DNA from: Methanobacteriota archaeon
GTDB lineage: Archaea; Thermoplasmatota; Poseidoniia; Poseidoniales; Poseidoniaceae
Direction: 5' to 3'
NCBI GenBank assembly: GCA_018659375.1
Contig: JABJMO010000058.1
Location: forward strand, 1 to 64,000
Length of the DNA: 64,000 bases
Each line of letters begins with the position of its first letter. Positions within the stretch are counted from its first letter, which is position 1. Under the pieces are notes generated by a model. It saw only the letters and a program-made list of their open reading frames with translations, was not told where the DNA came from and searched no databases. The translations under genes were made by a program, and so were the position numbers. Shown piece after piece: positions 1 through 64,000 of this stretch.

Positions 1-502
1 CCGCTAAGGATACTTTTCAGCTTTCACTCACGTTACTTGTAAACTATCGGTCTCGAGTTGTATTTAGGATTGGAAGTATTTGCCTCCCACATTCACACGC
101 GATTTCCAGCGCATGCTACTCTTTGACGGTCACGTGGTCATATCATGTACGGTTACGGGACTTTCACCCTCTATGGATGTGTCATTCCAGACAACTTCAC
201 CTTCCATGACTTAGACGATAGACCGACAACCACATCTCCCTCACTTTCGTTTCGGGATTCGGCTTGTCCTATTCCGTGTTCATTCGCCACTACTTACGGA
301 ATCTCATTTGATTTCATTTCCTCCTCCTACTAAGATGCTTCAATTCGGAGGGTTCCCTATCGCATCGCGATTATTTGGGAAGTCCCATTCGGCAATCTGC
401 GGATCCATGGTATTCATGCACCTCCCCGCAGCTTATCGCAGCTTGTCACGACCTTCTTCGGCACTCGAGCCGAGCGATCCCCCAGTTGGGTTGTAGCATC
501 AC
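1..502 (-). rRNA. 23S rRNA, 5' part (gene continues beyond window start)
   Basis: Reverse complement contains archaeal 23S domain I landmarks: GGATCGCTCGGCTC...GACAAGCTGCGATAAGCTGCGGGGAG, TCCGAAT-like segments, GTGAAAGTCCCGTA, CGAGACCGATAGTTTACAAGTAACGTGAGTGAAAGCTGAAAAGTA. 5' end (about 502) estimated by alignment from memory to Haloarcula 23S, uncertainty about +/-10 nt. Confidence 0.93.
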
Positions 503-654
503 ATGTATGTATTCCACACCATGCGAGTAACCCTTCGGTATCTAATTCATGCCAATTCGGCTTCCTCAGAAGACCAACTCCTCTAGGATGGTCCCCCTCA
601 GCCCTTCCCCTGACATAGGCATGCCAAGGTGCTAAGCAAGCAACCGACCTACCT

Positions 655-690
655 CCTGTATATGAATAAATCGGTTTGTTCGAACAATTA
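655..690 (-). promoter_or_regulatory. Candidate archaeal promoter for 23S rRNA (TATA-like TTTATTCATATA with upstream CGA/BRE-like bases; TGTTCGAACA palindrome just upstream)
   Basis: A/T-rich box at 659-670 read on minus strand, about 160 nt upstream of the mature 23S 5' end; perfect 10-bp palindrome at 677-686. Position-based inference. Confidence 0.4.
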
Positions 691-759
691 TTGACAGTAA
701 AAAATAGTTTAGTACACTGTTTAGAATGTGATAATAAAATACCCTTGTTAACGCCAAAA

Positions 760-2040: not shown

Positions 2041-2108
2041 AACTTAGCCCCGCCCACACCAAACAGGCTTGGGCTTTCAAGTAAGCGCTTAGAAGATGAA
2101 TAAAAGAC

Positions 2109-34207: not shown

Positions 34208-34681
34208 CTACCAATCTTCTGGAATCTCAAATGGAGAAAATAATTGACCTGGTGAGGTAATGCTAGATAATTGGCTCCTTGCCAAATGCTCCCACATTCT
34301 TAGGGTAGAAATACCGTCAATAAGAATCATTTCTGTTTCGACCATTGTTACTCGTATTAAGGTCATCAAAATATCCATTCGATCCTCGTCAACAACTGAT
34401 AAAATTTTATCTACACTAAGGGACGATGCTACTTCTTCACTGATTGGTGTGATAATAGGCCACTGATTTTTCAACTTTTCAGGTATCTCACTATTATTCG
34501 TTGCTGCATGTTCTTCTAAGGATGTAAGCATTGGAGAAAGCATATTTTGTATTACGATGCTTACCTCAACCAAGGGCATATTTAATTGTTTTATTAGGTT
34601 TACAACACGTTCTTGGAGAGTTACCAAACCCTCTACCGCATCTTCTGACATAATTCCACCAAATTTAGTTGTAAGTCTCAA
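34208..34681 (-). CDS. Unknown alpha-helical protein
   Basis: 157-aa ORF overlapping by 4 nt the end of the giant TSP3 gene (translational-coupling arrangement). Confidence 0.55.
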   Translation of the reverse strand: MRLTTKFGGIMSEDAVEGLVTLQERVVNLIKQLNMPLVEVSIVIQNMLSPMLTSLEEHAATNNSEIPEKLKNQWPIITPISEEVASSLSVDKILSVVDEDRMDILMTLIRVTMVETEMILIDGISTLRMWEHLARSQLSSITSPGQLFSPFEIPEDW

Positions 34682-45231: not shown

Positions 45232-47754
45232 TCATCTTCCCATAACAGCGTTGTGTACTTTGGTTTGTACCTCACGCATTCTAGATTTAGCTCCAAGTTC
45301 CCTGAATACTGCTAGAGCTCTTTGCAAATATTCCATTCTTCGAGATTTTTCTGGAGCTACGCTTCCCAGACGAATCAATAATTCTCCGATTTGCATCCTA
45401 AGGTCATTAGCCTCAGCAATTACCAAGGCCTCTCTGAAATGTTCCATGGCCTCATCATTTTTACCTGAGTCTTGCAGAACCTCACCCAGCAGAATAGTTA
45501 TGTCCACCATTGCTAATATGTCCCCTTCTTCGTTCATTGCCTCTAATGCTTGTGAATAGTGGTGTGAAGCAACATCTAGGTCTCCAACCTTAGCATAATA
45601 ACGTCCCAAGACAGCTTGAGCTCTAGCATGTAATTGTTTGTCATTCGATTTTTCAGTTTTGTCAAACGCAGTTAGAGCATGATCTCTTGCCCGGTCAATT
45701 TCCCCTAAATCCATAAGTGAACGGGCAAGAATTAATTGTGAACTTATCAACTCAGGCTCGTCATTTTCCTCAAGTATTCGTTCTACCTCACTGTATGACT
45801 CTATGGCTTTGGAGTTGTCATTTTTCCTTCTAAGTAAATATCCCATATTATTGTAACTTCTTGCAGCTCCTACAGCATGTTTTTGCTTGATAAATATCTC
45901 AAGGGCCTCTTTATGCATGCTGAGAGATTCATCTAAACTACCTTGTTTTAAGGATATATCTGCAAGTGCAGACAATGCTTCTGCTTGTATTGAATTATTT
46001 TTACCCTTGACCGCCTGTTCTTGAGCAGAACCAAATGCCACCTTTGCCTCCTCAAAACGACCTAGAAGAGATAATATCTCTCCCTTGAATTGTAGAATGT
46101 TTGCTAGCATCTCCTGAGGAATGTCCTCCAGTGTGATAGAATCTATCAATCCAAGTAGTTCCATATGTCCTTGAGAGATTAGGGTACGGCCATCTTCTAC
46201 AATCATACTTGCTGCTTCTGCCATTTTATCTGAACTTAGTAAGTGGAAAATTAGCTCAATTGTATACCCTGGTGTTTGGCTAGATTTCTTGTACCAGTTG
46301 CTGCATTTTGCATGTAATTCGGACTTTGTCTGATTATCTATGTTCCTTAACAAAAACTCTCTTATCAAATCGTGAACGTCATAGATTTCAGTTTCGACCT
46401 GTCTTGCTAGTCCTTGCTCAACAAGTGAATCTAAAATGTCAATGTTTAGATTTTGCTCAGCTAAGGCTTCGATAGAAACCGGTTCTCTAAATATAGATAA
46501 TACTGAAAGGACTCTTTTCTGTTCTGCGGTAAGTTTGGAAAAAATCTCGACGGTGACATAATTCTCTAATGTTTCATGGAACGCTGTAGCAGAAGCCCCC
46601 CGATTGATTAACTCTAACACCAATGGATGCCCGCGTGAAATCCCATGAATGTATAGCCATTGTTCATCTTGCAAATCGGTAAAACTGCTTAACAACTTTC
46701 TACCCGAGAGTGAATCTAATCCATCTAAAGGCAATACTAGACTGGCTATTCTACCCTCTGCATCCTTAGAGGGAACCACTGGCTTGAAGGAACGGGAGAA
46801 CAATACTAAACCTATTTTTTCATCACTGCCAAGTAATCCTAGAGCCATTGCTTGGAAGGTTTGATGTAGAATTGTATCAGATACTTTATGAAAATCATCG
46901 ACAACAATTAGAGTTGGAGTACTCTCTAATGCGCCAATTAACAGGTTTGCAGCCTCAGCAGGCTTTGGTACTGGAGTTGTCGCAATATAATCTGCGAAGG
47001 TGGAATCCCCAATGTTAGCCAGCCATTCGCCCACTGACTCAAAGAAAGAACGAGAACCTTCCCAATCTTGACATCTATGATAAAGTAGGTTCCTTCTGTG
47101 CATAAATCGCTCGATAAGTTTACTTGCCATTGTAGTCTTTCCAATACCTGCAATCCCAGGAACTAGCAGTGTAGTCGCTCTTGCTTCAAGCAGATTATAC
47201 ATATTGTCGAGTTCGTTTTCACGGCCATAAAAATGCCTGAGGCGTGGCAAATCACCGAGCGATGTTACTAACTGTTTCTCAACATGTTTCGACAAATCAC
47301 GTTCAATTAAGTCTGCCGATAATGTCCTAGAATCGATTATACAATTATCGTCCATGTATCGAATAATATCTACTGACCTCATACTAAAAGGCAAAATAGT
47401 ATTTATTTCTCCTAAAGTAGTAGACTCAATTTTACCATCTTCTAAGATACAGCGCAAATCGAATGAACGCAATTCATTCCAGGTATCCTCGGCCAATGTT
47501 TTTCCAGATTCGGTCAAAAAATAGGCTTTTCTTTTTCTCGAAACGCCCTTTACATGGGCTTGTCTTTCTATTAGTAGACCCTGGTCTTTCAGACCAGCAA
47601 TTGCTCTAGGAACATTCGAACGCGCAATCGCCACTGCATTAGCAATACCCATTTGTGATAACGAAAAAGGGACTTCTACACTGTTTTTGTAGTCCGAATA
47701 ATCTAGTAAATGGAGTAATATCCGCTCTTGGACACCAGGTTTTGTGCTTGCCAT
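45232..47754 (-). CDS. wHTH-STAND (AP-ATPase/NB-ARC-like) TPR regulator
   Basis: N-term winged-helix (SLSQMGIANAVAIARSNVPRAIAGLKDQGLLIERQAHVKG..KRKAYFLTESG), P-loop VPGIAGIGKTTMASKL, Walker B TLIVVDDFH, C-terminal TPR array. Confidence 0.88.
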   Translation of the reverse strand: MASTKPGVQERILLHLLDYSDYKNSVEVPFSLSQMGIANAVAIARSNVPRAIAGLKDQGLLIERQAHVKGVSRKRKAYFLTESGKTLAEDTWNELRSFDLRCILEDGKIESTTLGEINTILPFSMRSVDIIRYMDDNCIIDSRTLSADLIERDLSKHVEKQLVTSLGDLPRLRHFYGRENELDNMYNLLEARATTLLVPGIAGIGKTTMASKLIERFMHRRNLLYHRCQDWEGSRSFFESVGEWLANIGDSTFADYIATTPVPKPAEAANLLIGALESTPTLIVVDDFHKVSDTILHQTFQAMALGLLGSDEKIGLVLFSRSFKPVVPSKDAEGRIASLVLPLDGLDSLSGRKLLSSFTDLQDEQWLYIHGISRGHPLVLELINRGASATAFHETLENYVTVEIFSKLTAEQKRVLSVLSIFREPVSIEALAEQNLNIDILDSLVEQGLARQVETEIYDVHDLIREFLLRNIDNQTKSELHAKCSNWYKKSSQTPGYTIELIFHLLSSDKMAEAASMIVEDGRTLISQGHMELLGLIDSITLEDIPQEMLANILQFKGEILSLLGRFEEAKVAFGSAQEQAVKGKNNSIQAEALSALADISLKQGSLDESLSMHKEALEIFIKQKHAVGAARSYNNMGYLLRRKNDNSKAIESYSEVERILEENDEPELISSQLILARSLMDLGEIDRARDHALTAFDKTEKSNDKQLHARAQAVLGRYYAKVGDLDVASHHYSQALEAMNEEGDILAMVDITILLGEVLQDSGKNDEAMEHFREALVIAEANDLRMQIGELLIRLGSVAPEKSRRMEYLQRALAVFRELGAKSRMREVQTKVHNAVMGR

Positions 47755-47769
47755 AACTCAATCACCCAA

Positions 47770-50700
47770 CTACTGGTTGTTGTTTACATAATCTGGATCT
47801 GGAACCCATTGATTTTGTTCAGCATTCCACAACCATCCAGGATGTTGAGATGTTTGCTGAGCAACTACCGCTTCTTGTTGTACTAGCTGGGCTGTTGCTT
47901 GTTGTGGAATCTGATTTTGTTGTGATTCTATGTTTGGAACTGCTTTGGCTTTAGCCCATGCATATGGATCTTCTGAGGCTTGCGTTATACCAGTTGATTC
48001 TTCTTCATCATATTCTTCAAAAGTAAAGAAGAACATACCGACTGCTAAAAGAGCAATTACTATCACAATTCCAATGATAATGTATAGCAACAAACTACTA
48101 CTATCTTCTTCCGATTTAGTCGACACATCGAATTGTGCATCAGTGCCAGATTCATCGGCGAATATTTGACCATCCATCTCGAATACTATCTCTCGATTTT
48201 CCTTTGAGCCAAGTTGACTGGCACTAATTTGCATACTCCAAGTGCCATCACCTAATACTCTAGTAGAATTAATCATTTGACCTGACTTTGAATCAAACCT
48301 AGCTTTTACTAGGCTGTCTGGCAATCCTTGCCCACTAAAAATAGCCGGGCTAGAATCTGAAACAACACCGGTGTTTTCACGTATTACTTCGAAGGAAACC
48401 TGTTTAACCAGAACGTTCACTGAACGAGAAACTTCCCAAAGATCACTTCCATCTGTGGCAACGAATTTTAATCCAACTAACGACCATGAATCTATACCAT
48501 CTGACCTTGTTGTTGGTGGATTATAGGTTGCTATCCCTTCGGATGATATGGACATGTAATCATAATACAAGTCATCTGTAGTCACACTTGGATCGTTGTA
48601 TACATTGAATCTTAGTAATCCCCCTTCAGGGTCGGTGAAATAAGCACCCAAATCAAATACAGCCCCGCTGCCGCAACTATCGAGACTTTTTGAATTGGCA
48701 TCACAGTAGATTACCACAGTATTTGCCCAGCCGTCAGGAGTGAAACTTGGAGGTGAATTATCTACTGAGTTGTCAATGGTGATAAACCTAGACTCTTCAT
48801 CAGAATATGACTCGCCGTCGAAGGATCTCACTACAATCTCATACATTGAGTTATGTGGGACGTTGTTAGTTTTCCATAACGAATTAGTACTCCATGATGT
48901 GTTAAACTCGCCATTTTGAATTTGATCTTGGGTTATAGTAATGGTATTTGCTGCCGAGCCGCTATCTCTACCATTCTTGTAAATGTCAATGTCAACTCGA
49001 GTTATTAGTCCGTCGTTATCCCAAACATAACCAGAGATCGATGTAGATTCGCTGCCTCTGACTACAGAGTTATCCAATGGAGAATCAAGCGCAATATTTG
49101 GTTGAGCATTTTCGTTGACTATTTTCAAATTCAAAGTCATTACATCACAAGTCTCATCGCTGGTGTCATCTTTACAAAAGTCACTATCTGCCGCCCAGAT
49201 TCTAAAAGTATAATCTCCAGAAGCATAAGTAAGGTAATTCCAATCATATTGCCAAGCTGAAAGAGTTTCCCCGACAGATGGCGTCAAAGCAAATTTAGAA
49301 GTTAATTGCGGGCTTGAATCTTCTATTAATTCGAACCAGATTTCTTTTATGTCGTTACCATTAACACCAAAGTATGGGTCACTTGAAGTGCCACTAAATG
49401 ATACTACTGGGCCTTTTGGAGAATTAGAATTATGTTCTGAGTTTTGAGCTGGTGTGTTGACCACTATAGAAGGTGCTTCAAGATTAAGTTTGTACCGTTT
49501 GACAGTAACTGGCGAGTAATCAAGGCCATCATAGGCCCGTACTCTAAAAGTCACATCGCCTTCTCCTTCAGGGTGATTAGACATATCATATTCAAATGCC
49601 CATGTACTAAATGGGTAAGATCCTTGAGTTATTTCGCCACCTGAATTAGAGGTATCTACAGCAGACATCCATACTTCAGAACCTGGAGTTTGAATTTGGA
49701 CATCTTCAACCATTCCAAACTGCTTTTGTTGGGCAATTATATCGCTGGCATAAGGTGGTGCTTCACCATCCCAAGCTGTACCAGATAATCTAACGATTCG
49801 AGCAAAAGATGTCAACTCTGGTTGTTCAACTGTAACGCTTGGAGCCATGTTTACTAGATTGATAATATCGTCAACTGGTCCGTTTAGAACAAAATCATAT
49901 TCCATAATCCCTTTGCCAAATTTGTATGCCTCTACACTATATTCTGGGATTTCACGACCATTTGCGCAATCTGGGTCATTTTCGTCGGTAAGTGTGTCTC
50001 CATCATTGTCATAGCCGTCCGAACAGGTGTTTTCATCGAGGGTTTCGGTAATAGCAGGTGGACCAGGAGTAATTATGACCTGAACATCTTGTTCTCCAAC
50101 TACGTTATTCCAATTTCTATCCAAGTAAAAATCACTTGGAAGAGTTACCTCTGGAGTGTAGCCAAACTGGTCGGTAGTTAGGGTATAGAGTGGAAGTCCA
50201 GTTGATTCTTTGATGATTACAGTCGCCCCATCTACGTTAATGTTAGATGCCTTTACTTGGAAACGAACCAACTCTCCCTCCCTTACTTGAGAGCCCCAAG
50301 GTGAGTTTTGGTTTTGGACATGAATTTTAGTATTGTCAAAATTTTGTAATCCAGCATATGATAAAACTGTGGAGTTATTGACTAAATCTAGGGACATAGG
50401 CATTTCTGCCGGAGGCATATTAGCAGTATCTGGTACTTTCAAACATTCATTCTGAACAGATGGACACTCTGAACCGAGCCATTGTAATTGCACCGGATGG
50501 ATTTCATTGCCACCTGCATCAGGAATATATTCAGATTGAATAGTAACCCTTGATTCTGTAATGTTGTAGACTTGGGTTGCATTGGTAAATGTGTTGCCCG
50601 AAAAGTATCCGATTGAACCATATTTATTGCCATAATTATCATCATGATGTGAGATGTTCACTGCAAAACTTTCTGTTTGCATATTATTATTCTGTACATT

Positions 50701-52167
50701 TACAATACTTCCTTTAATTCGTAAAGCATCACCAAGATTATTTTTCACGGTGTTGTTGTATATGGTTGCTGAAGCTCTAAAGATATGAATAGCAGGGCAC
50801 TGGAAATCTCCACCGTACATTTTAACTGAATTGCATGTTGCAGCATTATTTTCGATTATGTTATCGGCCATATAGAGCCTAGATTCCGTTGGTGCTACTG
50901 AAGGCCATCCTGAATCTTGATAGTGGTATTCTCCGTGTACTATTGGTTCTTTACCAACATCTGTGATGGTATTTCCGATCGCAGTCACATCTGAAGTACC
51001 ATATATCCAGATTCCGTTGAACCCTCCAATCGGCCCAATGATATTGTTTTGAAGATCTACAATAGAGGACCGGATGGCGATTCCTGAACCCTGTTCTGCC
51101 CCGGATACAGTATTACCATGAGCAGAAACCCTTGCTTGATCATATGCGGTAATCCCTGCACCATCTGTGGTTGTTAAGACATTGTCATTAATATCTAGGG
51201 TATGCTTTATTGAACCTGTTTGCTTGAATCCTTTGGTATCGATGGCTGCACAGTTTACTGTTATATCTGAGTTTAATACCTCGCCGGATGACTGGGACAA
51301 GAAAATACCGTAGCCATTGTCGGAGATTGTCACATCATTAACTGATAGATATGAATTGTCAGCATAAATCATCGAGATACCCGAACCACTATTTCCACAA
51401 CTTCCTTCGGCATCACCAGTGAAAGTCGATGTAGAGATACGTAGTGGGTCATTGATTCCAGCACCAGCACCATAGGCAGATATTGCAGCTCTTTTACCAA
51501 TTGAGTATGCATCATTACCGAGGGTAAAGGTAGAAGAAGTAATTGTGGGATCGGCAAGATTAGTCAAGAAAATGTTGGATGAATTAGTATTGGTGAAGAC
51601 CAAACCATTTGCATTAGTTCTAGGACCGTCAAATACCAATGCGGCATGTCTAGCAGCAGCATTACCGCCGATGTTTAGAATTAGTTCGTATCCGTAAGCA
51701 TTCTCAAATTCAACATAATTTAGACCTGTCTTAGCCTCATCTATGGTATTTCGAATCACCATTCCTGAACCACAAGCAGCATCGATACTGCCCGCACACG
51801 GCCCCCTGACTGTGTAATCAGTTGGCAAACTCCATGCGAACTTCACTGCATTGGATGCAGTTCCGTCAGAGGGGGCACCACAAGCAGCAGCAGCAACGCA
51901 TATTGCACCCATGACATCGATGTGTTTGCCAAATGGTATGTTGATAGTAGTGCCGGCATTAACTACTAAACTTGCACCTGGAGCGACTGTAACGTTGTCT
52001 GTCAATGTGTGAGTACCTGTCCAGGTTTCTTGACCGTTTAGTAGACCGGCAGTGGTTTGATTAATACCTGCCGCAGAAACTGCAGGAATGGAAATCATCG
52101 AAAGGGCGACTGATAAGAATAACAAACCAATCATTGTGACACTTTTTTTCTTTAAATTTGAAGACAT
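47770..52167 (-). CDS. Giant secreted right-handed beta-helix protein with C-terminal TM and W-containing cytoplasmic tail
   Basis: 1465 aa; signal peptide MIGLLFLSVALSMISIPAVSAA; PbH1-like repeats (DNVLTTTDGAGITAYDQARVSAHGNTVSGAEQGSGIAIRSSIVDLQNNIIG); TM LLLYIIIGIVIVIALLAVGMFFF; tail HPGWLWNAEQNQWVPDP. Confidence 0.88.
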   Translation of the reverse strand: MSSNLKKKSVTMIGLLFLSVALSMISIPAVSAAGINQTTAGLLNGQETWTGTHTLTDNVTVAPGASLVVNAGTTINIPFGKHIDVMGAICVAAAACGAPSDGTASNAVKFAWSLPTDYTVRGPCAGSIDAACGSGMVIRNTIDEAKTGLNYVEFENAYGYELILNIGGNAAARHAALVFDGPRTNANGLVFTNTNSSNIFLTNLADPTITSSTFTLGNDAYSIGKRAAISAYGAGAGINDPLRISTSTFTGDAEGSCGNSGSGISMIYADNSYLSVNDVTISDNGYGIFLSQSSGEVLNSDITVNCAAIDTKGFKQTGSIKHTLDINDNVLTTTDGAGITAYDQARVSAHGNTVSGAEQGSGIAIRSSIVDLQNNIIGPIGGFNGIWIYGTSDVTAIGNTITDVGKEPIVHGEYHYQDSGWPSVAPTESRLYMADNIIENNAATCNSVKMYGGDFQCPAIHIFRASATIYNNTVKNNLGDALRIKGSIVNVQNNNMQTESFAVNISHHDDNYGNKYGSIGYFSGNTFTNATQVYNITESRVTIQSEYIPDAGGNEIHPVQLQWLGSECPSVQNECLKVPDTANMPPAEMPMSLDLVNNSTVLSYAGLQNFDNTKIHVQNQNSPWGSQVREGELVRFQVKASNINVDGATVIIKESTGLPLYTLTTDQFGYTPEVTLPSDFYLDRNWNNVVGEQDVQVIITPGPPAITETLDENTCSDGYDNDGDTLTDENDPDCANGREIPEYSVEAYKFGKGIMEYDFVLNGPVDDIINLVNMAPSVTVEQPELTSFARIVRLSGTAWDGEAPPYASDIIAQQKQFGMVEDVQIQTPGSEVWMSAVDTSNSGGEITQGSYPFSTWAFEYDMSNHPEGEGDVTFRVRAYDGLDYSPVTVKRYKLNLEAPSIVVNTPAQNSEHNSNSPKGPVVSFSGTSSDPYFGVNGNDIKEIWFELIEDSSPQLTSKFALTPSVGETLSAWQYDWNYLTYASGDYTFRIWAADSDFCKDDTSDETCDVMTLNLKIVNENAQPNIALDSPLDNSVVRGSESTSISGYVWDNDGLITRVDIDIYKNGRDSGSAANTITITQDQIQNGEFNTSWSTNSLWKTNNVPHNSMYEIVVRSFDGESYSDEESRFITIDNSVDNSPPSFTPDGWANTVVIYCDANSKSLDSCGSGAVFDLGAYFTDPEGGLLRFNVYNDPSVTTDDLYYDYMSISSEGIATYNPPTTRSDGIDSWSLVGLKFVATDGSDLWEVSRSVNVLVKQVSFEVIRENTGVVSDSSPAIFSGQGLPDSLVKARFDSKSGQMINSTRVLGDGTWSMQISASQLGSKENREIVFEMDGQIFADESGTDAQFDVSTKSEEDSSSLLLYIIIGIVIVIALLAVGMFFFTFEEYDEEESTGITQASEDPYAWAKAKAVPNIESQQNQIPQQATAQLVQQEAVVAQQTSQHPGWLWNAEQNQWVPDPDYVNNNQ

Positions 52168-52288
52168 GAAAACTCCTCTAATTTACCCTATGCTGGCAAG
52201 CAATATAATACTGCTCTAATATTGACAAAAATTAGAATATCAAAATAACCCGATAGTATCACTGCTAGTGGCGATTAATCATGGCTAA

Positions 52289-53503
52289 TCACTGGCAAAT
52301 AGGCAATTTTCTTGCTTCTTCAAGCCAATTACCTGCGTGTAATTCACCATATCCTGAATGACTATCATGAATATTACCGCCGCTTGGAGTACTCATTCGT
52401 AATGCTTCTTTTACCGAATCAACACAAGAACCATCTGAATCTGCTTGTGGCCTTAGCATTGGTAAATCTTCTAGAATAAGGGCCAATGCTGCTGCAACAA
52501 ATACTGTTGAATCCGATGTCCCACTGCTGGAATACCAAGTATCGCCTACTCCTGTACTGATAATTGATTGACCAGGAGCAATTATTTCAGGTTTAAAGTT
52601 TGGATTGGTACGTAATTCACCTGCCAGAGTAGTTTGCTGACCCATTGAACTGTTATCCCAAACACCTCCTCCCTTTACTGAGGCACCCACAGATATTGCC
52701 CTCGGGACATTGCTTGGCACCGATACTCTACCATCGTCATCTGGACCTCCATCGTTACCTGCTGCTGCAATAACATAAATCCCCATATCTGTCGCTTTTC
52801 TAGTAACTGAAACCGATGGGCCCTCACGACTCATACCATCTGTTTGGGTACCTCCTAGTGATAGGGAAATTATGTCAGCTTGGAAATCTTCAATGCACCA
52901 ATTTATGGCCATTGCTACTGTTTCTTCGTTAGCAGTGTTTTTTCCACTACCATCATCACCCAGTGCAGCCACAACCCCTAACCTGACATTGGGAGACATA
53001 CCAATTTGATGACTTTGAGCAATGAGTAAACCCCCCATCAGTGTACCATGTGCCAAAAACCCATAATCAACTGGTGTGGTTGAAGCCCCAATCATATCTT
53101 TGAATTCCACACTAACCCCTGCGAAGGCAGGATTGCTTAGATCGATGCCTGTATCTACGACGCAAACCTTCACTCCTTCACCAGACAATCCGTTGAGGAT
53201 CTCATCATCAAACCCTGCTTGTTCAGCAGCCCATTCAGACTTGGCTGGCGGCACCTCAATTAGGAAATATCCGGATTGCCAGATCCACAGCATTAGAACT
53301 GCAAAAATGGCGAATAGTATACTATTGGTAACTAAGAACCTCTTCCTTCGAACTCGATTGATTGGAGTAGGTCTATTGGGTGCCCAACCAGTGATTTCAG
53401 CTCGCCATTCATCTTGAAAACCAACAGCGGATGGGTCAATTGCTGAGAGGATATTCCTATCATCAGGTTCAGGGAGGAGTTCCACTGTATCTAACGAGCT
53501 CAC
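52289..53503 (-). CDS. Membrane-anchored subtilisin-like serine protease (S8)
   Basis: 404 aa; N-term TM FLVTNSILFAIFAVLMLWIWQSGYF; VKVCVVDTGIDLSNP, YGFLAHGTLMGGLL, SSSGTSDSTVFVAAALAL. Confidence 0.92.
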   Translation of the reverse strand: MSSLDTVELLPEPDDRNILSAIDPSAVGFQDEWRAEITGWAPNRPTPINRVRRKRFLVTNSILFAIFAVLMLWIWQSGYFLIEVPPAKSEWAAEQAGFDDEILNGLSGEGVKVCVVDTGIDLSNPAFAGVSVEFKDMIGASTTPVDYGFLAHGTLMGGLLIAQSHQIGMSPNVRLGVVAALGDDGSGKNTANEETVAMAINWCIEDFQADIISLSLGGTQTDGMSREGPSVSVTRKATDMGIYVIAAAGNDGGPDDDGRVSVPSNVPRAISVGASVKGGGVWDNSSMGQQTTLAGELRTNPNFKPEIIAPGQSIISTGVGDTWYSSSGTSDSTVFVAAALALILEDLPMLRPQADSDGSCVDSVKEALRMSTPSGGNIHDSHSGYGELHAGNWLEEARKLPICQ

Positions 53504-53555
53504 TCTCTCACCAATTGCTGACTTACTAGTCAGGCATTTAACTGATTGTCTGAAA

Positions 53556-56500
53556 TCAGAATCTATTGCTACCCTTGTTACGTGCTACCTTGGTTCCACC
53601 ATATGCTACAAGTAATGTAAGAACAATAATTACCACCATAAACCATGAAGAAGTTCCTTCTGCTTTGTCAAGAATTGTTTCTTCTTGGTAATCGAATGAG
53701 TCTACAGAATCTTCAACATAATCGACAGGTGTCAAATCCTGTGTCGAGGTCACCTCTACGCTAATTGCAAATCTATTGAATTTTGAAGAAGACGGGTCGA
53801 CTACAAATGTTGCGTTAATTGTTTGTCCGGCTGGAACTGAGATATTTAGGGACTCTAAAGTGTCAATAACTTCTGTACCAGCATCGTTGGTTAAGTCGAC
53901 TGAAACCAATACGTTACTTGCGGTGCGGTAACCACTGTTGGTAATTGGGACAACTAACTGTCCGTTCTTACTCTCATAGACCTTGGTTAATTCTTGTGAT
54001 AGAGTTTCGTCCACCGAAAGTGAAATTCTCGCTGATACGATATCGACAACTAATGTTTCAGAGGTCAAACCATCTTCGCTAGTAATTGTTACAGTCGCTT
54101 CAATTTCTCCAGAAGTGAAATCTTCTGGCGCAAATATTGAGAATTGTTGTGTTCTTAAGTCACCCTTTGAGATAGTTAATGAAGTTGTAGAAGGGGTGAT
54201 CTGCCATCCTTCAAGCAAGTTATCTGCCAGTTCTATGGTATAGGTGTCATCTCCATTTCCTGTGTTTGACAATGTTACGGCAAAGTTGCCAGTACCACCT
54301 GGTGAAACACCAGTTTCTTCTACAACATTTGTTAACTCCATACCGTAGTATTGTGGCACATTTACTCTTACATTTGTGGAACTAGAAACCCCTGCTTCAC
54401 CAGTCAATTCAATATTTACCAGATGACCAGAATCCAAACTGATTGAAGAACTTAGATTTGGCAAGTTTACTCGCATCTTGACAATTGTAGAATTATCCAC
54501 TGTGCTGTCAGAAATTGACTCACCTATACCAAGTATGACATCTAGGCTCGAAACCCAATTTGTACCATTGTACACCTCTACAGACCAATCACCTGAGTCT
54601 TGAGCATTGGCAACAAAACCACTTACTGTTAGCTTGTCACTAGTTTCAGTACCTTGGTACTCAACATCTAAGTCAAATTCAATGGTTTGGTAATCTTCGC
54701 CTGAAACTACTGGAGTCAAGACGTTGTTACCAATCAAGGAAGCATTCACTACTGAATTGTTGTCTACCGCGACTATTGAGTCTGAATTGAGCGAACGTGA
54801 GTATGCTAATTCTAGATCAATAATACCCTGTTCAATTATTCCGTTCGAGATTCCAAAGTAATCCATTTCCAAGTTTCTTTCATGCTGAATTGATGTAAAA
54901 GTGGATGTGACTTGGAAATCCCCAACTGGCAATAATAAGTTGAGCATACCATCATCATTCAAACTATAATTCCATATCGCACCTAGTCCAATATCAATAG
55001 AAACCTCAACTGGTTCTTGAATCATTTCAATACCGGTACTATTGCTTCCCACATGATGGCTTTGCAATTGGATATCATCCCATGTTGTACTGAGGTCGAC
55101 AAACCCTCCTGAGGACATAGTCATGTTCAATGTACCTCCGTCAATGATATTTGCATCTAGGAAACCAACAGAAACACCACCGGTATTCTCATCAAACACA
55201 GAACTTTCCACAACAACAATCCATACACCGGGTTCAACATTTGTTGACCAATCTAATGAACCATTAGAGTATTGTCCAGTAACAGTAATAGGTTCCGAAT
55301 CTCTAGTTGACTCAGGATAAAGTATGATTGAAGCATCTACTAAACTAGCTTCTTCATTTTGCAGGTTTGAAGTTATTGAACCGCTAATCAAAACATTTTC
55401 AGCAGTTGTAGTTATATCTTCTATTATAGATGAGTCTTCAACTACTAGCACATCAGATTCATTGAATGAATAATAAGCCGTACTGTAACCTTCTTGCTGT
55501 ATAGTAATGTTGTAACTGTTCATTACCGGAACAAATTGTTTCCATACTCCAAATTCATCAGTTTCTGTGATAAATTCTAAGGATTCATCCACTGAAGTAA
55601 TGGTAACATTGGCACCAGAGATTATTTCAGTTAAATCCCCTCTATCGTTTTCATTTGAATCCCAATAGAATTTACCACCGATCAGCACTTCTAAATCAAC
55701 TGACACATTTCCAAGTTCTAATGATTCACCAGATTGTGTTGTGACTTGATAATTAGCATCAACAAGTTCCCATTTTTCGTCACTAATCTCTTTTTCCAAG
55801 GATAATATCCAGTTACCTGGCATAATTTTATCAGACACATGGCCGTTTTCATCGCTAGAAGATAGTGTGACATTTCCTAATCCATCTTGGCTAATAGCAA
55901 CAACTCTAGCATTTGCTACAGGGTCGTTAGTATCCTCTTCTATCAAGCTGAAATTCAGTAACGCTGCTTCTGACAAAACAAGTTGTAAATCGGTCCTTGA
56001 TGAAGAATCATCCGTTATTAAGATTGGAGTTCTAAGTGTATATGTTACGTTGTCGATATCCACTGGAGAGATTATAACAATCCAATCACCAGATGGAATA
56101 TACTTGGCGAAAGAGCCAGTATCATTAGTATTTGCAGAGAGGAATTGATTATTTGATTCATTGAACAGAAGGAACTGCGAGTTCGTGAAGTTTTCACTTC
56201 CAGCAGTTATTGTTCCTGAAAACAATCTCTCATCACTCAGGATAATTTCTATATCCTCGTTATCTGATTCAAACATACTGACAAACACCTCAAATGTAGT
56301 ACTGAAGGTGTTGAAATCAGTGGCATTTTCATCGTTGGCTTCTGTATAGTTTGTAATTACCGAGTATTTACCAGGCATAATCTGCAAAGCCGCTTTACCT
56401 TCCACGTTGAAATCTGTTTGAGTCAAATAATATTGACCAGCGTTTGTACTAAGCGGATTGAATGTAACATCCGCATATTTTGGTATAGATTCATTGCATC

Positions 56501-59500
56501 CATCATCTTGTTCTAAAGTCAAGCAAACAGATATATTTACGGAGACCAATTCAAGATTAGCGGTAAGGTTAATGTTTTGGCTCGTGATGAACGAAGTTAC
56601 GTTCCAATCATCTATTGGAGTTATGTTGTACTCTGCATTCTTTGCAGTGAAATCATATTCGCCTCCTACTAAATCAAAGGAGAAACCACCTAAGGCAGTT
56701 ACTTCAGACTCCCATTCAATTCCATTTGCATCGGTTGCCACCACAATAGGAGTTAGACCGTCATAGAACTGACCATTCCAAGTACTGTTAGCATCATTAA
56801 CAAATAGTGTTCCTGAAACTGCATACAAACGGTTGAGGAATATATCCCCTACAGAAAACTCAAGTTGACCATCTGGCATTACCGACATTCCAACGCCGTA
56901 TGTTGAACCTGTTGTGGACGCTTTCAAGACATATTCTAGATCGCCTGGCACGGTTATCGAGAAATTCCCATCCGAGTCTGTCGAGGTGGTGAATTCATAG
57001 TCATCTGAAGACAAAAATACCTCAAGACTAGATGCCTTTGTAGTATTAGCATCAATATCTGCTTGAGTCCAATCAGAGTTAAATTCAGTTACATATGCCA
57101 GTACAGTCCCTGAAATTTTACTGGCGATGGTATATTCCAGATTTATTTCCAAGTCAGAATCAGTTACTTCTAGAGTACTAAACAACAAATAGTCATTAAC
57201 TTCTTCTTGAGCAATGTTGTAATCACCTACAGGGAGTTCAGCATAAACCATGCCTGTTGAATCAGAAGTAAATGTTTCCGTGTATCCAAGTATTCCGCTG
57301 ATTGTTAGGTTGACATTTGCTATGTCAATTAAATCATCTCCAGATTCATTTACCGGAGAGATTAATTGCATAGATACATCAAAAGTGTCTGGAATCACAT
57401 TCATTGGTTCATATATTGCAGTTTCTTCTCCGACAGTAATTTCTCCAGAGATTTCGTAAAATCCATCATCATCCAAATCTATTTGATATCGATAATCACC
57501 TGAGGACAAAGGACCGTACTTGTATCCACCTGTTTCGTTGGTCAAGACAGATACCGAAACATCATTATTTGCCAAGTCAATCAATTCAAAGGAAGTGTTG
57601 TCTAATGCAAAGCCTGTTGAATTAGTTAGATTGCCCAACAATAGCGAACCTGGCATTGTTAGAGATATGTCATAGCTCGGCTCTATACCAATGGAAACAG
57701 TTTGAGGTAATTCTACTTCTTTGCCGTTTGTTAGATTTACAAATGCCGCATATTCACCAGGCACTATTCCTGTTTGGTAGAATGAACCAGGATTAACCAT
57801 TGGACCAGAAAACATTCCTTTGCCAACAAATCTTCCTGTTCCATTGAATGTACCTTTGCCTTCAAACAGACCTATTCCTTCAACGTAAGATCCATCGTGT
57901 TCTTGAACAAGAATTGTGTCCCCATTAGAGGTGAAACGACCGTTGGCCTGTACCTCTCCTTCAATCATGTATGTTGGTAAGGTGTCGGTTGAATCCTTTA
58001 GACATACAGTTTCATTTTCAGGCATAGATATGTCAGAGGAGTCGGTGGTATTTACCACACAATCTAACACAGAATTTGTGTCAATGTCAATCCATGATGC
58101 TTTAATTTCACCTGAACCATTCCAAGTACCATTTGCAACATACGTCCTTCCATCATTAACTGTTCTAGTAAATGTTCCATGGAAATCAACAACAGAGGCT
58201 AATCCTTCACTTTCAAAAGTTCCGTTTTCTACGAATGTTGCTTCTCCAGTACCTTGAATTATTCTGGTTTCGGTTGTTTCAAAAGAGCCATTTGTGGTAA
58301 TTATTATGACATCTTCAGATGCATCGTGGTTATTTCTTAAAATCAGAGTAGTGTCGACTATCGGTTCATTGTTAAACAAATCATCTCCGGTCCAAGTTAG
58401 TTGACCAGAAATGCCGCTGCTATCTACTGCGATATCCATTGTATCTAACACATCAGCTGTTCGGTTTGCTTGCTCTCCTGTAACATTCATTACAGTATCT
58501 CCCAACCAAGTCATGTTTGCTACGTTACCAAGGATAGAGGTAATTGGGAACACAGTCCTTCCGTTATCGGAGGGCAAACAAACTCCGTATTGAGAATTAT
58601 ATTCTTCATACGAATTACAAAGTATGTCGGCGAAATTTTGCATATACGAACCATCATTAATTGACGCCTTAGATGGTTCAGCATCAAAAGTACCAACAAA
58701 TGCACTGACTCTTATCTTTCCTGCTGGTGCAGTGAAAGACCAGTCACCATTTTCATCCGCATCTGTATAACCAATTGGAATCCAATAAGTATCGGCGTCT
58801 AAGTCCTCAGCACCTTCGCCAGAAAAGGCATCTCTTTCGATTAATAGCCTGACTCCAGGGAGAGGGTTACCGTTGTCGCTCATAGAAACTTGGCCACTAA
58901 TTTCAGCACCAGAATAATACTTCATTATCTTGACAAAGGTGTTTGCGGCAAATGTTGTATCATTTGCGTCTTCACTGTACCAGTTAGAGATAACAAAGTG
59001 GTTCATCATAGCCCCAGGCATTGGAACTGCATTTTGCAATATTGACCCAGGAGAACCAGTTTGGCGGAAGTGTTGGGCTGGTTGTGGATTAGAGAATGCC
59101 GTATCTACACCTAGCGAGGAAGCACCATATCCAACATAGGTTCTCGCCAGCATTGTTTCGAAGAACGCAGGATTGTGATCAACTCTTACATCTTGGACCA
59201 ACAGCGGATCAATTTCCAATCCTGCTTGTTGGTCGAGGAAATCGTTTACCATTGCTTCATCGACTTCTTCTCTTGTCATCTCAAAGTTTCTGTCTCCTCG
59301 AGAAGTCTCATAAGTTTCATCCATGAAAGTTGAGATGTCTTGGCCACTCAAGATTGCTGGAGCACCAAAGATTCCCATTGGTTGTTCGCCATTGTATGCT
59401 GCATCAGCAGTATAACGTCCAGCCTTGGGGTACAATCGATTATCGATAGCAAAGTATCTTATCTCGTGGTCTCTTTGAATCATATCTCCTGGCAGACCTT

Positions 59501-62500
59501 CATAGTCTTGGACTGAGTAGTAACCTTCCATGCCAATTAAGTCATCATACAGGTTGACTATCTCTGATTCAGTCATAATATCGTTTAACAACTGAACTGT
59601 TAACGCTAATCTGGCGTTTGCTCGATGAATGTGCGTAGATACTGAATCGAATTCATCCCGCAAATCGCTGGTATACCAATAATCTCCAAAGATGTAATGA
59701 GTAGTTTCGTAATTAGTTTCTTGTCCAGATCTTACATTGTTGTTGAATGTTACATTGGCATCTGAAAAATCGCTCCAATCTCCATCGACACATGAAGTAG
59801 AGACATCTGGGTCACAATCAAGTCTTTCACCGTCTTGGTATAATCTATAGTAAAGAGTGCTTGTGTCAGCAATTCCGTCAACACGATGATAACCAGTGGC
59901 CATTACATTGTGACTGTTTTCTTGAATTTGAGATGCTTCATTAGTTTGGATGACTGTGAAAGCATAGTCATCAATTATCTCACGCATGTTATCGTTGTCA
60001 CGCTCTTCTTGAATAGTTTCAAACAAGTCGTATTGTTCTGAATCCATATGGTCGTTAACAGTATTGGTAAACCCTGAAGTTAGTTCATAGTCGCCGGTGT
60101 TGATTTGAGTGTACCGCAGATCTCCTGTTGCTAATTGCCAAGTAAACATAGAGATTAGGTCGGCTTGGTTTCTAGCGAGCAACATGTTACCAGAAGCTGG
60201 AATTCCAGACTGGAAGTTATCAGAAACGGATGGGTGCTCGCCAGTATCAAGAGCTTGGAAACCATAATCCCACCAAGAAACAAATGCTGGCTTTTGTGAA
60301 TATGGCATCTGAGCATCCTGTTGCGTCATCCAATCATAAGCACTATTCCAGCCGTAATCGTTGAATCCAGAACCAAAGGAACCAAGATACCAATTACCTG
60401 AATATGCACTACTATCCAATACTGAAAATCCTGCTAATTCCCATCTTAGGGCATCTGGAATGATGTTGTAGATGTTTTCATCTATACTATCCTCACCTTC
60501 ATCGGAACCGGGAATTGCTGCATCTAGCCCGTAAGTGAATTGTTGTCCACCAACTAGTAAGATGACTAGCAAAATAGCAGAGAATGAGGGAGTCTTCCAT
60601 ACTGCTCTTCTAGCGCCTGCAATTCTATCTGCAGGGGTTCTGATTCCGAATTTTTTCCATGCTTTAACAAGGCCGCGGAAATTGGCTTTATCCCACAAAG
60701 CGACTATTCCCCAAGCACCTAGTACTGCTACTGCAGGTGTTGCGTTGAACATGAATCTTGCAGCAGTCCAAGACATGTAGGACGCAGTGAAAATCCATAT
60801 TCCAAAGAATAGGTGAGTCTGATTTTTGTTTCTAAAAGTAGACCAAAGTGCATAGAATCCCATGGTCAACGCAAGTACCAGCACAATAGGTCCTAATTGA
60901 GCGAATAACTGTCCACGGTCAGGTGCATTAGCCTCTGCAACAGTCCCAAATATCTTTGTCTTGGTGAAATATCCACTTCCAGTGAATAGAACATCCCAAG
61001 CATTACTGTATTCTAATTGCTTCATGATGAATAGTATGACGAAGAATACTGTTGCTGCCACAAATAAGGTTCCCAAAACTAGCAACCATGGTTTGTCTCT
61101 AAAGCCAGTGGTTACATAGGCTATAGCAACCGTAAATCCTAGCACAAACAAGAATGGTTGTAATCCAGTTCCATCAAGAACTAGATTCATTTGTGGATGA
61201 GCATAGAACGGTAACGCCATTAGAAGATTCGCCAACAACATTGTCAAGAACAATGCATTGAGTGAAGTTGAATCCTTCCTGCGGAACATGTTTAATGCTA
61301 CTTGAGCAAAGTAAGCCAAGAAAAGTATGCTTGGTCCAACTACGAAACCTTTCCACGCCAATGAAGCAATACCGAATGACACACCAGCAAGAACCGCAAA
61401 TGCCATTGCTGGTCTGCGTTCTCTTGCTATAACACCATAAGATTGTAAAATCGATGAAATACGTGGGGATGAAGTCCTAGTTAGACGATCATTGCTAGAA
61501 TACTTGATGGCTTTGAACCAGAACATGAATCCCATAGATATGAACAACATAACAAATGCATCGTGGTCTGCAAGCGCCCAAGTAGAGTGAGAAACGTGTG
61601 CAGGCATGAAAGCGATTAACCAAGCTGCAACCACACCAGTGGATTTACCGAAATTGTCTTTTGCAATGGTTGCAATTGGGAAAATGGTAAGCGCACCATA
61701 AATTGCTGGCAGGCCTAGAATAGCATACCAAACAGCATCGTCACCAAGCATTGGCTCTAGAATCATTGCTAGTAGGGCAATAGACCAAGTGAATAATGGC
61801 GGACGTGGGTTGACGCCACCGAGTGGATAAGCACGGTCTGCATCGAATATCAAGTGCGCATTATTGGCTAGGATATAATCTACAACACGCTTCATGTACC
61901 ATGGGTCAGAACCTCCAGTCAGGTCCCAGTCGCCAGTACCAACGGCATTCATTGATGGAACAATGTACCACTGGATTCTGATTACTAGTCCGAAAAAGAA
62001 AGCCATTCCAACCATCAAACTAGACCAATGGGCATCCCAGAACTTTCTTGCTCCGCTGGCTTCGTGATCGTCTAAATTTGCCCATCCACCATATTTCTCG
62101 TGAGTTGATATCATGTATATTCCAACACAGATAAAGAATGTGAAACCAAGCCAAATTAGTGAACCCCAAGTCCCCTCAAGTTGTTCAGATTCCCAAATCC
62201 CTGCTTCGTACCATGAAGACACCAAGTAAAGAGCCCACATTGAACCGATAAACATTGAACGAGTATACCACTTCTCAGCAGCCATTCCAGCAACTACCAT
62301 CGCAACCATACCAGTAAAGAAAGCACCCCAGAAGCCGAAATGCCCGTGATAGCCGTCTGCGCCTGTAACGCCCAGTTTATCTGCCATCGAGACAGCATCG
62401 AAATGGTATAGGCTACCAACATGTGCTAGAATCCAAACTGCTGCCGCAATTTGCAATGGTAGAGTAGATTTATTGTAAGAGCCCTGATGTTGAGCAATCT

Positions 62501-63125
62501 TCGAGAACCAGCCTTCTTGTCCTGCTGGATTAAGTGTACCTCTGGCAAGTATTCCTGTAAGTAATCCAAGGATGACAAATATAGTCAAATAACTGAAAAA
62601 CACATAACCTAGCGCTTGCCTTTGAAGATTTAGAGTGTCTATGAGTGACCCATCTGGATTAGTGTAAATAGTGACTAATTCACTAGTGTATGAACCGGCA
62701 GCAACCATTCCGACATTAATTCCCATTACCGCAAAAGTAAGCATTGTAGCAAATTCATGACGACCTCTTGAATCAAACAAAAATACACCAAAGGCAACCA
62801 CCAGGAATTGTAGCGCCATAAATGCACCTTGGTCTGTCAAGTGAATAATTGCTTGATGCCCAACCAATGCAGCACCCAATGTTGCTAGAGCAAGCGCCGA
62901 GGAAGAGAGTTTTACGGCACCATTATCTCTGACAACTCTTGGAGTAATACCCAAGATTGCCGCAACTGCAACAAGCAGCATCGGCGTCATATTTTCTAGG
63001 TTTAGGTCGAAGTCTATTCCTGCGACCATAATTGCTGCGATAGCCAGCATTACTGCAAGGGGTGCAATAAGCCACCCGAGCATTGGTGCTGGAGAGTTTC
63101 GCAATGTTGTTGTTTTCTCTTCCAT
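53556..63125 (-). CDS. aglB: Giant AglB/STT3 oligosaccharyltransferase with very large C-terminal repeat ectodomain
   Basis: 3189 aa; multi-TM N-terminus with GSDPWYMKRVVDYI and STWALADHDAF loops, WWDYGFQALDTGEHPSVSDNF catalytic-core motif near residue 950; then many carboxypeptidase-regulatory-like beta repeats, a NEW3-like domain and a C-terminal TM. Confidence 0.9.
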   Translation of the reverse strand: MEEKTTTLRNSPAPMLGWLIAPLAVMLAIAAIMVAGIDFDLNLENMTPMLLVAVAAILGITPRVVRDNGAVKLSSSALALATLGAALVGHQAIIHLTDQGAFMALQFLVVAFGVFLFDSRGRHEFATMLTFAVMGINVGMVAAGSYTSELVTIYTNPDGSLIDTLNLQRQALGYVFFSYLTIFVILGLLTGILARGTLNPAGQEGWFSKIAQHQGSYNKSTLPLQIAAAVWILAHVGSLYHFDAVSMADKLGVTGADGYHGHFGFWGAFFTGMVAMVVAGMAAEKWYTRSMFIGSMWALYLVSSWYEAGIWESEQLEGTWGSLIWLGFTFFICVGIYMISTHEKYGGWANLDDHEASGARKFWDAHWSSLMVGMAFFFGLVIRIQWYIVPSMNAVGTGDWDLTGGSDPWYMKRVVDYILANNAHLIFDADRAYPLGGVNPRPPLFTWSIALLAMILEPMLGDDAVWYAILGLPAIYGALTIFPIATIAKDNFGKSTGVVAAWLIAFMPAHVSHSTWALADHDAFVMLFISMGFMFWFKAIKYSSNDRLTRTSSPRISSILQSYGVIARERRPAMAFAVLAGVSFGIASLAWKGFVVGPSILFLAYFAQVALNMFRRKDSTSLNALFLTMLLANLLMALPFYAHPQMNLVLDGTGLQPFLFVLGFTVAIAYVTTGFRDKPWLLVLGTLFVAATVFFVILFIMKQLEYSNAWDVLFTGSGYFTKTKIFGTVAEANAPDRGQLFAQLGPIVLVLALTMGFYALWSTFRNKNQTHLFFGIWIFTASYMSWTAARFMFNATPAVAVLGAWGIVALWDKANFRGLVKAWKKFGIRTPADRIAGARRAVWKTPSFSAILLVILLVGGQQFTYGLDAAIPGSDEGEDSIDENIYNIIPDALRWELAGFSVLDSSAYSGNWYLGSFGSGFNDYGWNSAYDWMTQQDAQMPYSQKPAFVSWWDYGFQALDTGEHPSVSDNFQSGIPASGNMLLARNQADLISMFTWQLATGDLRYTQINTGDYELTSGFTNTVNDHMDSEQYDLFETIQEERDNDNMREIIDDYAFTVIQTNEASQIQENSHNVMATGYHRVDGIADTSTLYYRLYQDGERLDCDPDVSTSCVDGDWSDFSDANVTFNNNVRSGQETNYETTHYIFGDYWYTSDLRDEFDSVSTHIHRANARLALTVQLLNDIMTESEIVNLYDDLIGMEGYYSVQDYEGLPGDMIQRDHEIRYFAIDNRLYPKAGRYTADAAYNGEQPMGIFGAPAILSGQDISTFMDETYETSRGDRNFEMTREEVDEAMVNDFLDQQAGLEIDPLLVQDVRVDHNPAFFETMLARTYVGYGASSLGVDTAFSNPQPAQHFRQTGSPGSILQNAVPMPGAMMNHFVISNWYSEDANDTTFAANTFVKIMKYYSGAEISGQVSMSDNGNPLPGVRLLIERDAFSGEGAEDLDADTYWIPIGYTDADENGDWSFTAPAGKIRVSAFVGTFDAEPSKASINDGSYMQNFADILCNSYEEYNSQYGVCLPSDNGRTVFPITSILGNVANMTWLGDTVMNVTGEQANRTADVLDTMDIAVDSSGISGQLTWTGDDLFNNEPIVDTTLILRNNHDASEDVIIITTNGSFETTETRIIQGTGEATFVENGTFESEGLASVVDFHGTFTRTVNDGRTYVANGTWNGSGEIKASWIDIDTNSVLDCVVNTTDSSDISMPENETVCLKDSTDTLPTYMIEGEVQANGRFTSNGDTILVQEHDGSYVEGIGLFEGKGTFNGTGRFVGKGMFSGPMVNPGSFYQTGIVPGEYAAFVNLTNGKEVELPQTVSIGIEPSYDISLTMPGSLLLGNLTNSTGFALDNTSFELIDLANNDVSVSVLTNETGGYKYGPLSSGDYRYQIDLDDDGFYEISGEITVGEETAIYEPMNVIPDTFDVSMQLISPVNESGDDLIDIANVNLTISGILGYTETFTSDSTGMVYAELPVGDYNIAQEEVNDYLLFSTLEVTDSDLEINLEYTIASKISGTVLAYVTEFNSDWTQADIDANTTKASSLEVFLSSDDYEFTTSTDSDGNFSITVPGDLEYVLKASTTGSTYGVGMSVMPDGQLEFSVGDIFLNRLYAVSGTLFVNDANSTWNGQFYDGLTPIVVATDANGIEWESEVTALGGFSFDLVGGEYDFTAKNAEYNITPIDDWNVTSFITSQNINLTANLELVSVNISVCLTLEQDDGCNESIPKYADVTFNPLSTNAGQYYLTQTDFNVEGKAALQIMPGKYSVITNYTEANDENATDFNTFSTTFEVFVSMFESDNEDIEIILSDERLFSGTITAGSENFTNSQFLLFNESNNQFLSANTNDTGSFAKYIPSGDWIVIISPVDIDNVTYTLRTPILITDDSSSRTDLQLVLSEAALLNFSLIEEDTNDPVANARVVAISQDGLGNVTLSSSDENGHVSDKIMPGNWILSLEKEISDEKWELVDANYQVTTQSGESLELGNVSVDLEVLIGGKFYWDSNENDRGDLTEIISGANVTITSVDESLEFITETDEFGVWKQFVPVMNSYNITIQQEGYSTAYYSFNESDVLVVEDSSIIEDITTTAENVLISGSITSNLQNEEASLVDASIILYPESTRDSEPITVTGQYSNGSLDWSTNVEPGVWIVVVESSVFDENTGGVSVGFLDANIIDGGTLNMTMSSGGFVDLSTTWDDIQLQSHHVGSNSTGIEMIQEPVEVSIDIGLGAIWNYSLNDDGMLNLLLPVGDFQVTSTFTSIQHERNLEMDYFGISNGIIEQGIIDLELAYSRSLNSDSIVAVDNNSVVNASLIGNNVLTPVVSGEDYQTIEFDLDVEYQGTETSDKLTVSGFVANAQDSGDWSVEVYNGTNWVSSLDVILGIGESISDSTVDNSTIVKMRVNLPNLSSSISLDSGHLVNIELTGEAGVSSSTNVRVNVPQYYGMELTNVVEETGVSPGGTGNFAVTLSNTGNGDDTYTIELADNLLEGWQITPSTTSLTISKGDLRTQQFSIFAPEDFTSGEIEATVTITSEDGLTSETLVVDIVSARISLSVDETLSQELTKVYESKNGQLVVPITNSGYRTASNVLVSVDLTNDAGTEVIDTLESLNISVPAGQTINATFVVDPSSSKFNRFAISVEVTSTQDLTPVDYVEDSVDSFDYQEETILDKAEGTSSWFMVVIIVLTLLVAYGGTKVARNKGSNRF

Positions 63126-63260
63126 TTTTATTCCCTCATCGGTGTTTCGCGACAGCCTAAAGGCTGGAGCAACTTGTCCACTTGAGAACCTCTTTTAATA
63201 GTGACGCACGATGGAAGATTTATCTTTGACTCAGTATAGCGTTTAACATAAGAAAATAAG

Positions 63261-64000
63261 TCAACGATTTACGCTCAATATTTGGCCCCCAATATCACTT
63301 CGATAATGGCCCCCTTCCAAGGCGATTGTTTCGATTAACTCATAGGCTAAAGTCGCTGCACCAGACAGTGTTTTTGACATAGCGCTGCAAGACAAAACCC
63401 TGCCTCCATTGGCAATGATTTTGTTTTCCACTAATTTTGTACCTGCATGATTTACCCAAGAACTTTCTAGACCAATGTTGGCAAGTTTATCAGAGATACC
63501 CTCAACAATCCGCCCTTTAACTGGTTGATTTGGGTAACCTTCTGAAGCCAGCACAATAGTCAAAGCATGTGCTTTATGAAATTCTACTTCTAACGAGGAT
63601 AATTTATCCACAGAAGCACTATGCAGAATTGTGAATAGATCCGTTTTAATCAAGGGCAATGTTATTTGACATTCCGGGTCCCCAAACCTTACATTAAACT
63701 CAACAACATTAGGATCACCTGACTCAGTTATCATTAATCCAACATACAACACACCACGGTACGGAATTGTCATTTTTGACAAATGCTCAAACATTGGTCT
63801 GACGATTCTAGATATCACCTTTTCATATACCGATTTGGTCACAATCGGAGCGGGACAATACGCCCCCATGCCGCCGGTGTTGGGGCCTAAATCCCCATCA
63901 AACGCACGCTTGTGATCTTGACTTGGCGGCAGACAAACAAAACCAGAACCATCCATGACCACAAGCATACTTGCTTCTTGACCCGGCAAAAATTCCTCTA
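63261..64000 (-). CDS. purD: Phosphoribosylamine-glycine ligase, C-terminal part (gene continues beyond window end)
   Basis: EEFLPGQEASMLVVMDG, LPPSQDHKRAFDGDLGPNTGGMGAYCPAP, VEFNVRFGDPECQ. Confidence 0.94.
   Translation of the reverse strand, partial: EEFLPGQEASMLVVMDGSGFVCLPPSQDHKRAFDGDLGPNTGGMGAYCPAPIVTKSVYEKVISRIVRPMFEHLSKMTIPYRGVLYVGLMITESGDPNVVEFNVRFGDPECQITLPLIKTDLFTILHSASVDKLSSLEVEFHKAHALTIVLASEGYPNQPVKGRIVEGISDKLANIGLESSWVNHAGTKLVENKIIANGGRVLSCSAMSKTLSGAATLAYELIETIALEGGHYRSDIGGQILSVNR

Follow-up and report, generated by a model that had tools for sequence, protein, structure and literature searches.

Members of the archaeal order Poseidoniales have an AglB that is about three to four times the usual size of this enzyme. 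N-glycosylation in archaea has AglB as its defining enzyme, and Poseidoniales are abundant marine archaea. In the window, i.e., the whole stretch of 64,000 nucleotides that was analysed, aglB is a single unbroken frame on the minus strand with an ATG start and no internal stop. The protein, as read from its sequence, is built of three parts: a lineage-specific domain of ten transmembrane (TM) helices, the STT3 core, and a chain of about 1,700 residues of beta domains (the arm) ending in a C-terminal anchor (Table 1). The identity and the architecture of this doubly extended, lineage-wide AglB are secure. An earlier note on this DNA had claimed an AglB/STT3 of 3189 residues in the same frame, and with an STT3 match above the cut-off this claim holds.

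Table 1. Coordinates of aglB, the parts of its product and the two genes downstream (residues are those of the 3189-aa protein)
Feature	Residues	Positions	Strand	Basis or remark
aglB/STT3-like gene	1-3189	53556..63125	-	3189 aa; the genome's sole STT3 match
Extra N-terminal 10-TM domain	1-362	62040..63125	-	AlphaFold, distribution, positive-inside topology; Poseidoniales only
STT3 transmembrane region	363-880	60486..62039	-	acidic motifs and TIXE-type motif
C-terminal globular catalytic part	~881-1410	58896..60485	-	weak AglB_core-like match and WWDYG
First beta domain of the arm	~1411-1540	58506..58895	-	well conserved, 54-63% identity in 1351-1500
Glycine-rich, long-strand (beta-roll-like) segment	~1570-1795	57741..58418	-	AlphaFold; many invariant Gly
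Array of ~10 transthyretin/CarboxypepD_reg-like domains	~1800-2750	54876..57728	-	Pfam, model, Foldseek
NEW3/choice-of-anchor-like domain	~2912-3023	54057..54392	-	NF041740 3.4e-11, below its cut-off
CARDB/FxLYD-like beta domain (weak assignment)	~3030-3150	53676..54038	-	FxLYD E 0.12
C-terminal TM anchor, then short basic tail	3162-3180	53586..53642	-	hydropathy peak
S8 subtilase (N-terminal TM; Asp/His/Ser triad motifs)		52289..53503	-	conserved neighbour, directly downstream of aglB
1465-aa surface protein		47770..52167	-	third gene of the conserved cluster

The Pfam STT3 family (PF02516) matches residues 406-800 with 56.9 bits (cut-off 24.5), and no second STT3 match is found in this 1.9-Mb Poseidoniaceae genome. 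TIGR04154, the model of the archaeosortase-associated oligosaccharyltransferase subfamily, spans residues 371-1034 with 163.8 bits and does not reach its curated cut-off of 450. With the oligosaccharyltransferase loop motifs (DXD-type and TIXE/SVSE) defined as in PMC8342417, loop 1 has D407 within SDPWY (GSD rather than a strict DXD), loop 2 has D520-H-D522, and loop 5 has T728-V-A-E731, which across the set reads T728-V/I-A/G-E731. WWDYG is found at residues 951-955 (nt 60261-60275). It is present in all 30 proteins compared, and the catalytic residues of all four motifs are invariant among them. The region 1205-1340, examined for the DK/MI motif, contains conserved residues. Simple hydropathy finds 11 segments within residues 363-880, compared with the 13 TM helices of the AglB/STT3 core. 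By its sequence, the protein is evidently the AglB of this cell, its oligosaccharyltransferase core being intact, and it presumably transfers glycans. AglB of Archaeoglobus fulgidus (PDB 3waj/5gmy/7e9s) shares the STT3 core, the acidic loop motifs, the TIXE-type and WWDYG motifs, and the C-terminal globular core. While the Poseidoniales protein has 3189 aa, the A. fulgidus enzyme has only 875, with neither the 10-TM N-domain nor an anchored arm of beta domains. Note that STT3 homology starts at about residue 363-378. The catalytic unit, which the earlier note had drawn as residues 1 to about 1400, thus begins near residue 363, and residues 1-362 before it form an extra membrane domain.

The unusual length is not an oddity of one genome. 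Among other genomes of the order, 29 full-length relatives have 3124-3261 aa, and the same range holds for another 27 complete records, partly of the same species, that a scan of named genomes returned (lengths are those of stop-to-stop frames in both sampled Poseidoniales families). The long form is a fixed trait of Poseidoniales. The relatives from the named-genome scan belong to Candidatus Poseidoniaceae and other marine Euryarchaeota; identity across the core is 97-98% for the nearest ones. A survey of the phylum gives about 3150-3260 aa for most STT3 frames of both families, apart from those truncated by a contig end. It had been feared that a join artefact lies at positions 58500-59000 (residues ~1375-1542). 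This region shares residues with a stretch that is among the best conserved of the protein: at residues 1351-1500 the mean identity to the two families is 63% and 54% with about 1% gaps. Signs of misassembly are absent. Since full-length orthologs exist in other genomes, chance or misassembly is excluded. The arm has gaps of only 1-11%, while its identity between the families drops to 17-35%. That the length is constant despite this low identity suggests selection on both length and architecture.

Three aglB frames are broken by frameshifts at three different sites, with homology resuming in the next frame, and a fourth leaves its contig. With differing sites and continuing homology, these frames do not point to a natural gene split. 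In a single-contig genome of the same genus (L153, G015), aglB has a frameshift near alignment residue 1551, which is either a sequencing error or a real lesion. A Poseidoniales-like purD-aglB contig (L144) is filed under a Rhodobiaceae bacterium MAG, probably by binning contamination.

The N-terminal domain is modelled by AlphaFold as ten helices (pLDDT 84, pTM 0.84). Searches of residues 1-362 against Pfam, PDB sequences, PDB folds, and PHROG return no match, so that a membrane protein known to these collections is ruled out. The domain is seen only ahead of Poseidoniales AglBs, except that in one fragmented assembly a piece of it lies on another contig, at its end. It is absent from a related lineage of the same class (f3) in the distribution survey. 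Its charges obey the positive-inside rule with both termini inside the cell (K+R per sequence 10.3 inside and 0.7 outside). With this topology the invariant or nearly invariant residues R122, E124, R195, E284, and R360 would lie on or beside the cytosolic side. Another Thermoplasmatota AglB (L074 of genome G011, f13) has its own extra multi-TM region at residues 1-250, and no relationship of this region to the Poseidoniales N-domain is detectable.

The arm consists of about 10-11 transthyretin-like domains, a beta-roll, and NEW3/CARDB-like domains, and it is strongly acidic. Carboxypeptidase-regulatory-like repeats, a NEW3-like domain, and an extra C-terminal TM, together an ectodomain of about 1750 residues, had been described from the sequence, and all of them are found. 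CarboxypepD_reg matches the arm past residue ~1440 with 53 bits (cut-off 32). The transthyretin/CarboxypepD_reg-like units are spaced by about 95 residues; their number is approximate, being derived from a motif pattern by eye and script and from a model of residues 1440-2639. The NEW3-like and choice-of-anchor-T-like matches are below their cut-offs in the 3189-aa protein, while NEW3 is strong in other members. In a Pfam scan of the 28-row family alignment, NPCBM_assoc is matched in 7 members (best 2e-11) and CARDB in 5. The AlphaFold model of residues 1440-2639 (pLDDT 85, pTM 0.43) is a string of beta domains that are confident individually but not in their overall arrangement, and such low global order is expected for flexible beads. 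Foldseek matches of the arm model are the CNA-B/SdrD/pilin surface stalks of bacteria. In Gram-positive bacteria these stalks are likewise strings of prealbumin/Ig-like domains outside the cell. Unlike the arm, however, they are anchored to the cell wall, have a free end, and are not fused to a glycosyltransferase.

All 29 Poseidoniales relatives have the C-terminal hydrophobic segment and a net positive tail, and anchors are found at both ends of the arm in all Poseidoniales sampled. With both ends in the membrane, the chain must loop back. The earlier picture of a very long extracellular arm is right as to a long chain outside the cell but not as to a free one; by its predicted topology, this is an arch or loop tethered at both ends.

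Homologous, C-terminally anchored arms are evident from sequence comparison in many other Thermoplasmatota, while AglBs of further lineages have few domains and no anchor. Profile alignment shows that the arms are colinear. The long forms outside Poseidoniales (2081-2740 aa) end in a TM and a basic tail in all cases but one, and the exception is cut by the end of the fetched stretch. Their arms are shorter by several hundred residues and they lack the Poseidoniales N-domain. Eight short forms (908-1427 aa) have no such C-terminal TM. Since some Thermoplasmatota AglBs have few domains and no anchor, the arm is dispensable for catalysis in general. On a tree of the core, the anchored forms need one change only, but branch support is weak (41/66), so a single origin of the anchored AglBs is possible. 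Orthologs with the ectodomain encoded on its own would have spoken against the earlier note, but none is found among the relatives examined. Nine genomes were sampled for a short AglB, and in these a search with the arm profile finds no separate protein covering the arm. For the most part, the repeats of the profile match AglB itself in these genomes; other proteins match single repeats or the generic NEW3/CARDB part.

The arm is also rich in N-x-S/T sequons (2.8 per 100 residues), more so than other proteins of the window. The arm of the 3189-aa protein has 48 sequons compared with 30 in reversed reading, a modest excess for one protein. Over the arms of 30 proteins the counts are 1321 forward and 565 reversed. 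Control patterns show no comparable asymmetry (D-x-S/T 864/910, Q-x-S/T 235/272). The arms are related and are not 30 independent tests, yet the positions of the sequons turn over strongly and individual ones are mostly unconserved. The excess may be read as a sign that glycosylation of the arm is selected for. As no other STT3 is found in the genome, the arm is presumably glycosylated by AglB itself.

From these features we infer that the arm serves as a scaffold around the enzyme, anchored twice and glycosylated by the enzyme itself. The acidic, sequon-rich chain would form an arch or fence outside, beside the active site. Either in cis or in trans, AglB would glycosylate it, and the glycan-coated arm would space AglB in the envelope and hold or present emerging secretory substrates. 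Taken jointly, these steps are tentative, and we place them somewhat short of even odds. More doubtful is the proposal that the 10-TM domain docks a partner (translocon, ribosome, or lipid-linked-oligosaccharide machinery) through the charges of its cytosolic face. To the explanation of arm and N-domain as a whole, architecture together with inferred function, we assign a probability of about 50%. The mechanism is that part of it which we infer. The arm domains are of a generic fold and could be a pure spacer.

The same sequon density and acidity would also fit an arm that is a major cell-surface glycoprotein, replacing part of an S-layer or glycocalyx, with the enzyme in part its membrane anchor. 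The resemblance to bacterial surface stalks points the same way, as does the gene neighbourhood: the order purD - aglB - S8 subtilase - 1465-aa surface protein (47770-63998, minus strand) is kept in both Poseidoniales families wherever the available stretch is long enough, and thus aglB is clustered with a giant surface protein. However, such a coat would be costly at one enzyme per arm and its reach is limited by the double anchoring, and we consider it unlikely. The cluster bears on another reading, in which the membrane-anchored subtilase, encoded directly downstream on the same strand and having its catalytic motifs, cleaves the exported chain so that the catalytic part and the arm act separately. 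While the gene order is strictly conserved, synteny alone is weak evidence, because the purine-synthesis gene purD is kept equally strictly. A cleavage site is not identified, and the C-terminal anchor and constant length favour a single unit. Processing is the least probable of the readings weighed here. For the cluster as a whole, a shared envelope role or proteolysis is conceivable but lacks support.

Another reading couples the arm to protein export. NOMO in eukaryotes is a BOS complex subunit at the multipass Sec61 translocon and has a C-terminal membrane anchor. The Poseidoniales arm has the same general layout, tandem prealbumin-like domains followed by a C-terminal TM, and a NOMO-like chain fused to the glycosylating enzyme would link AglB to export. 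A profile of the non-Poseidoniales arms finds NOMO2 in the PDB with E 1e-34, the next unrelated protein being SdrD (2e-8), and with the Poseidoniales profile NOMO2 is first at 2.5e-7. Of the matches of Pfam NOMO_5th across 145 genomes, 5 of 5 are in AglB frames (by position and length). In this phylum, so are 4, probably 5, of the 9 matches of NOMO1-like_9th, while of the generic CarboxypepD_reg only about 5 of 150 among the matches listed are AglB. Against this, no NOMO model is above its cut-off in the 3189-aa protein (NOMO1-like_9th 21.3-26.8 bits, cut-off 27), and one arm (L064) passes NOMO_5th by whole-protein score only. When pieces of NOMO2 are searched directly, all matches are weak, to 8 of the 17 long arms from outside Poseidoniales and to 3 of the 15 control arrays, and the 50 best Foldseek matches of the arm model do not include NOMO2. 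Profiles made of two control or two arm sequences both have no match in the PDB and are too weak to judge NOMO specificity. NOMO2 may rank first simply as the solved chain richest in such domains. Furthermore, NOMO (PDB 9c7v) is a separate, non-enzymatic, eukaryotic protein. We regard the coupling to the translocon as quite improbable. It is a shade less probable again that the arm and NOMO share common ancestry, which would make the Thermoplasmatota AglB a covalent fusion of enzyme and translocon chain, in which the 10-TM domain would be another module for docking. If true, export and N-glycosylation would be coupled within one polypeptide. As to where NOMO came from, the arm offers a lead that can be tested.

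In the eukaryotic oligosaccharyltransferase, lumenal beta domains and extra membrane helices are supplied by separate subunits. In this widespread marine lineage, the catalytic chain itself has been extended by outside domains of similar total mass and by a membrane domain that is new. Nature thus provides, in Poseidoniales AglB, a system in which the role of the non-catalytic parts of an oligosaccharyltransferase can be studied. The open-access literature that was searched has no report of such AglBs in Poseidoniales, though one could be published elsewhere. A metatranscriptome study (PMC9723583) lists oligosaccharyltransferase among highly transcribed MGII genes and does not describe its architecture.

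Two other genes of the window may be mentioned. A frame of 1930 aa at 34678-40470 (minus strand) has an N-terminal hydrophobic segment, 28 sequons compared with 18 reversed, and no Pfam match at E<=1. Adjoining the surface-protein cluster, at 45232-47754 (minus strand), is an HTH/AAA (STAND-like)/TPR protein, probably a regulator.
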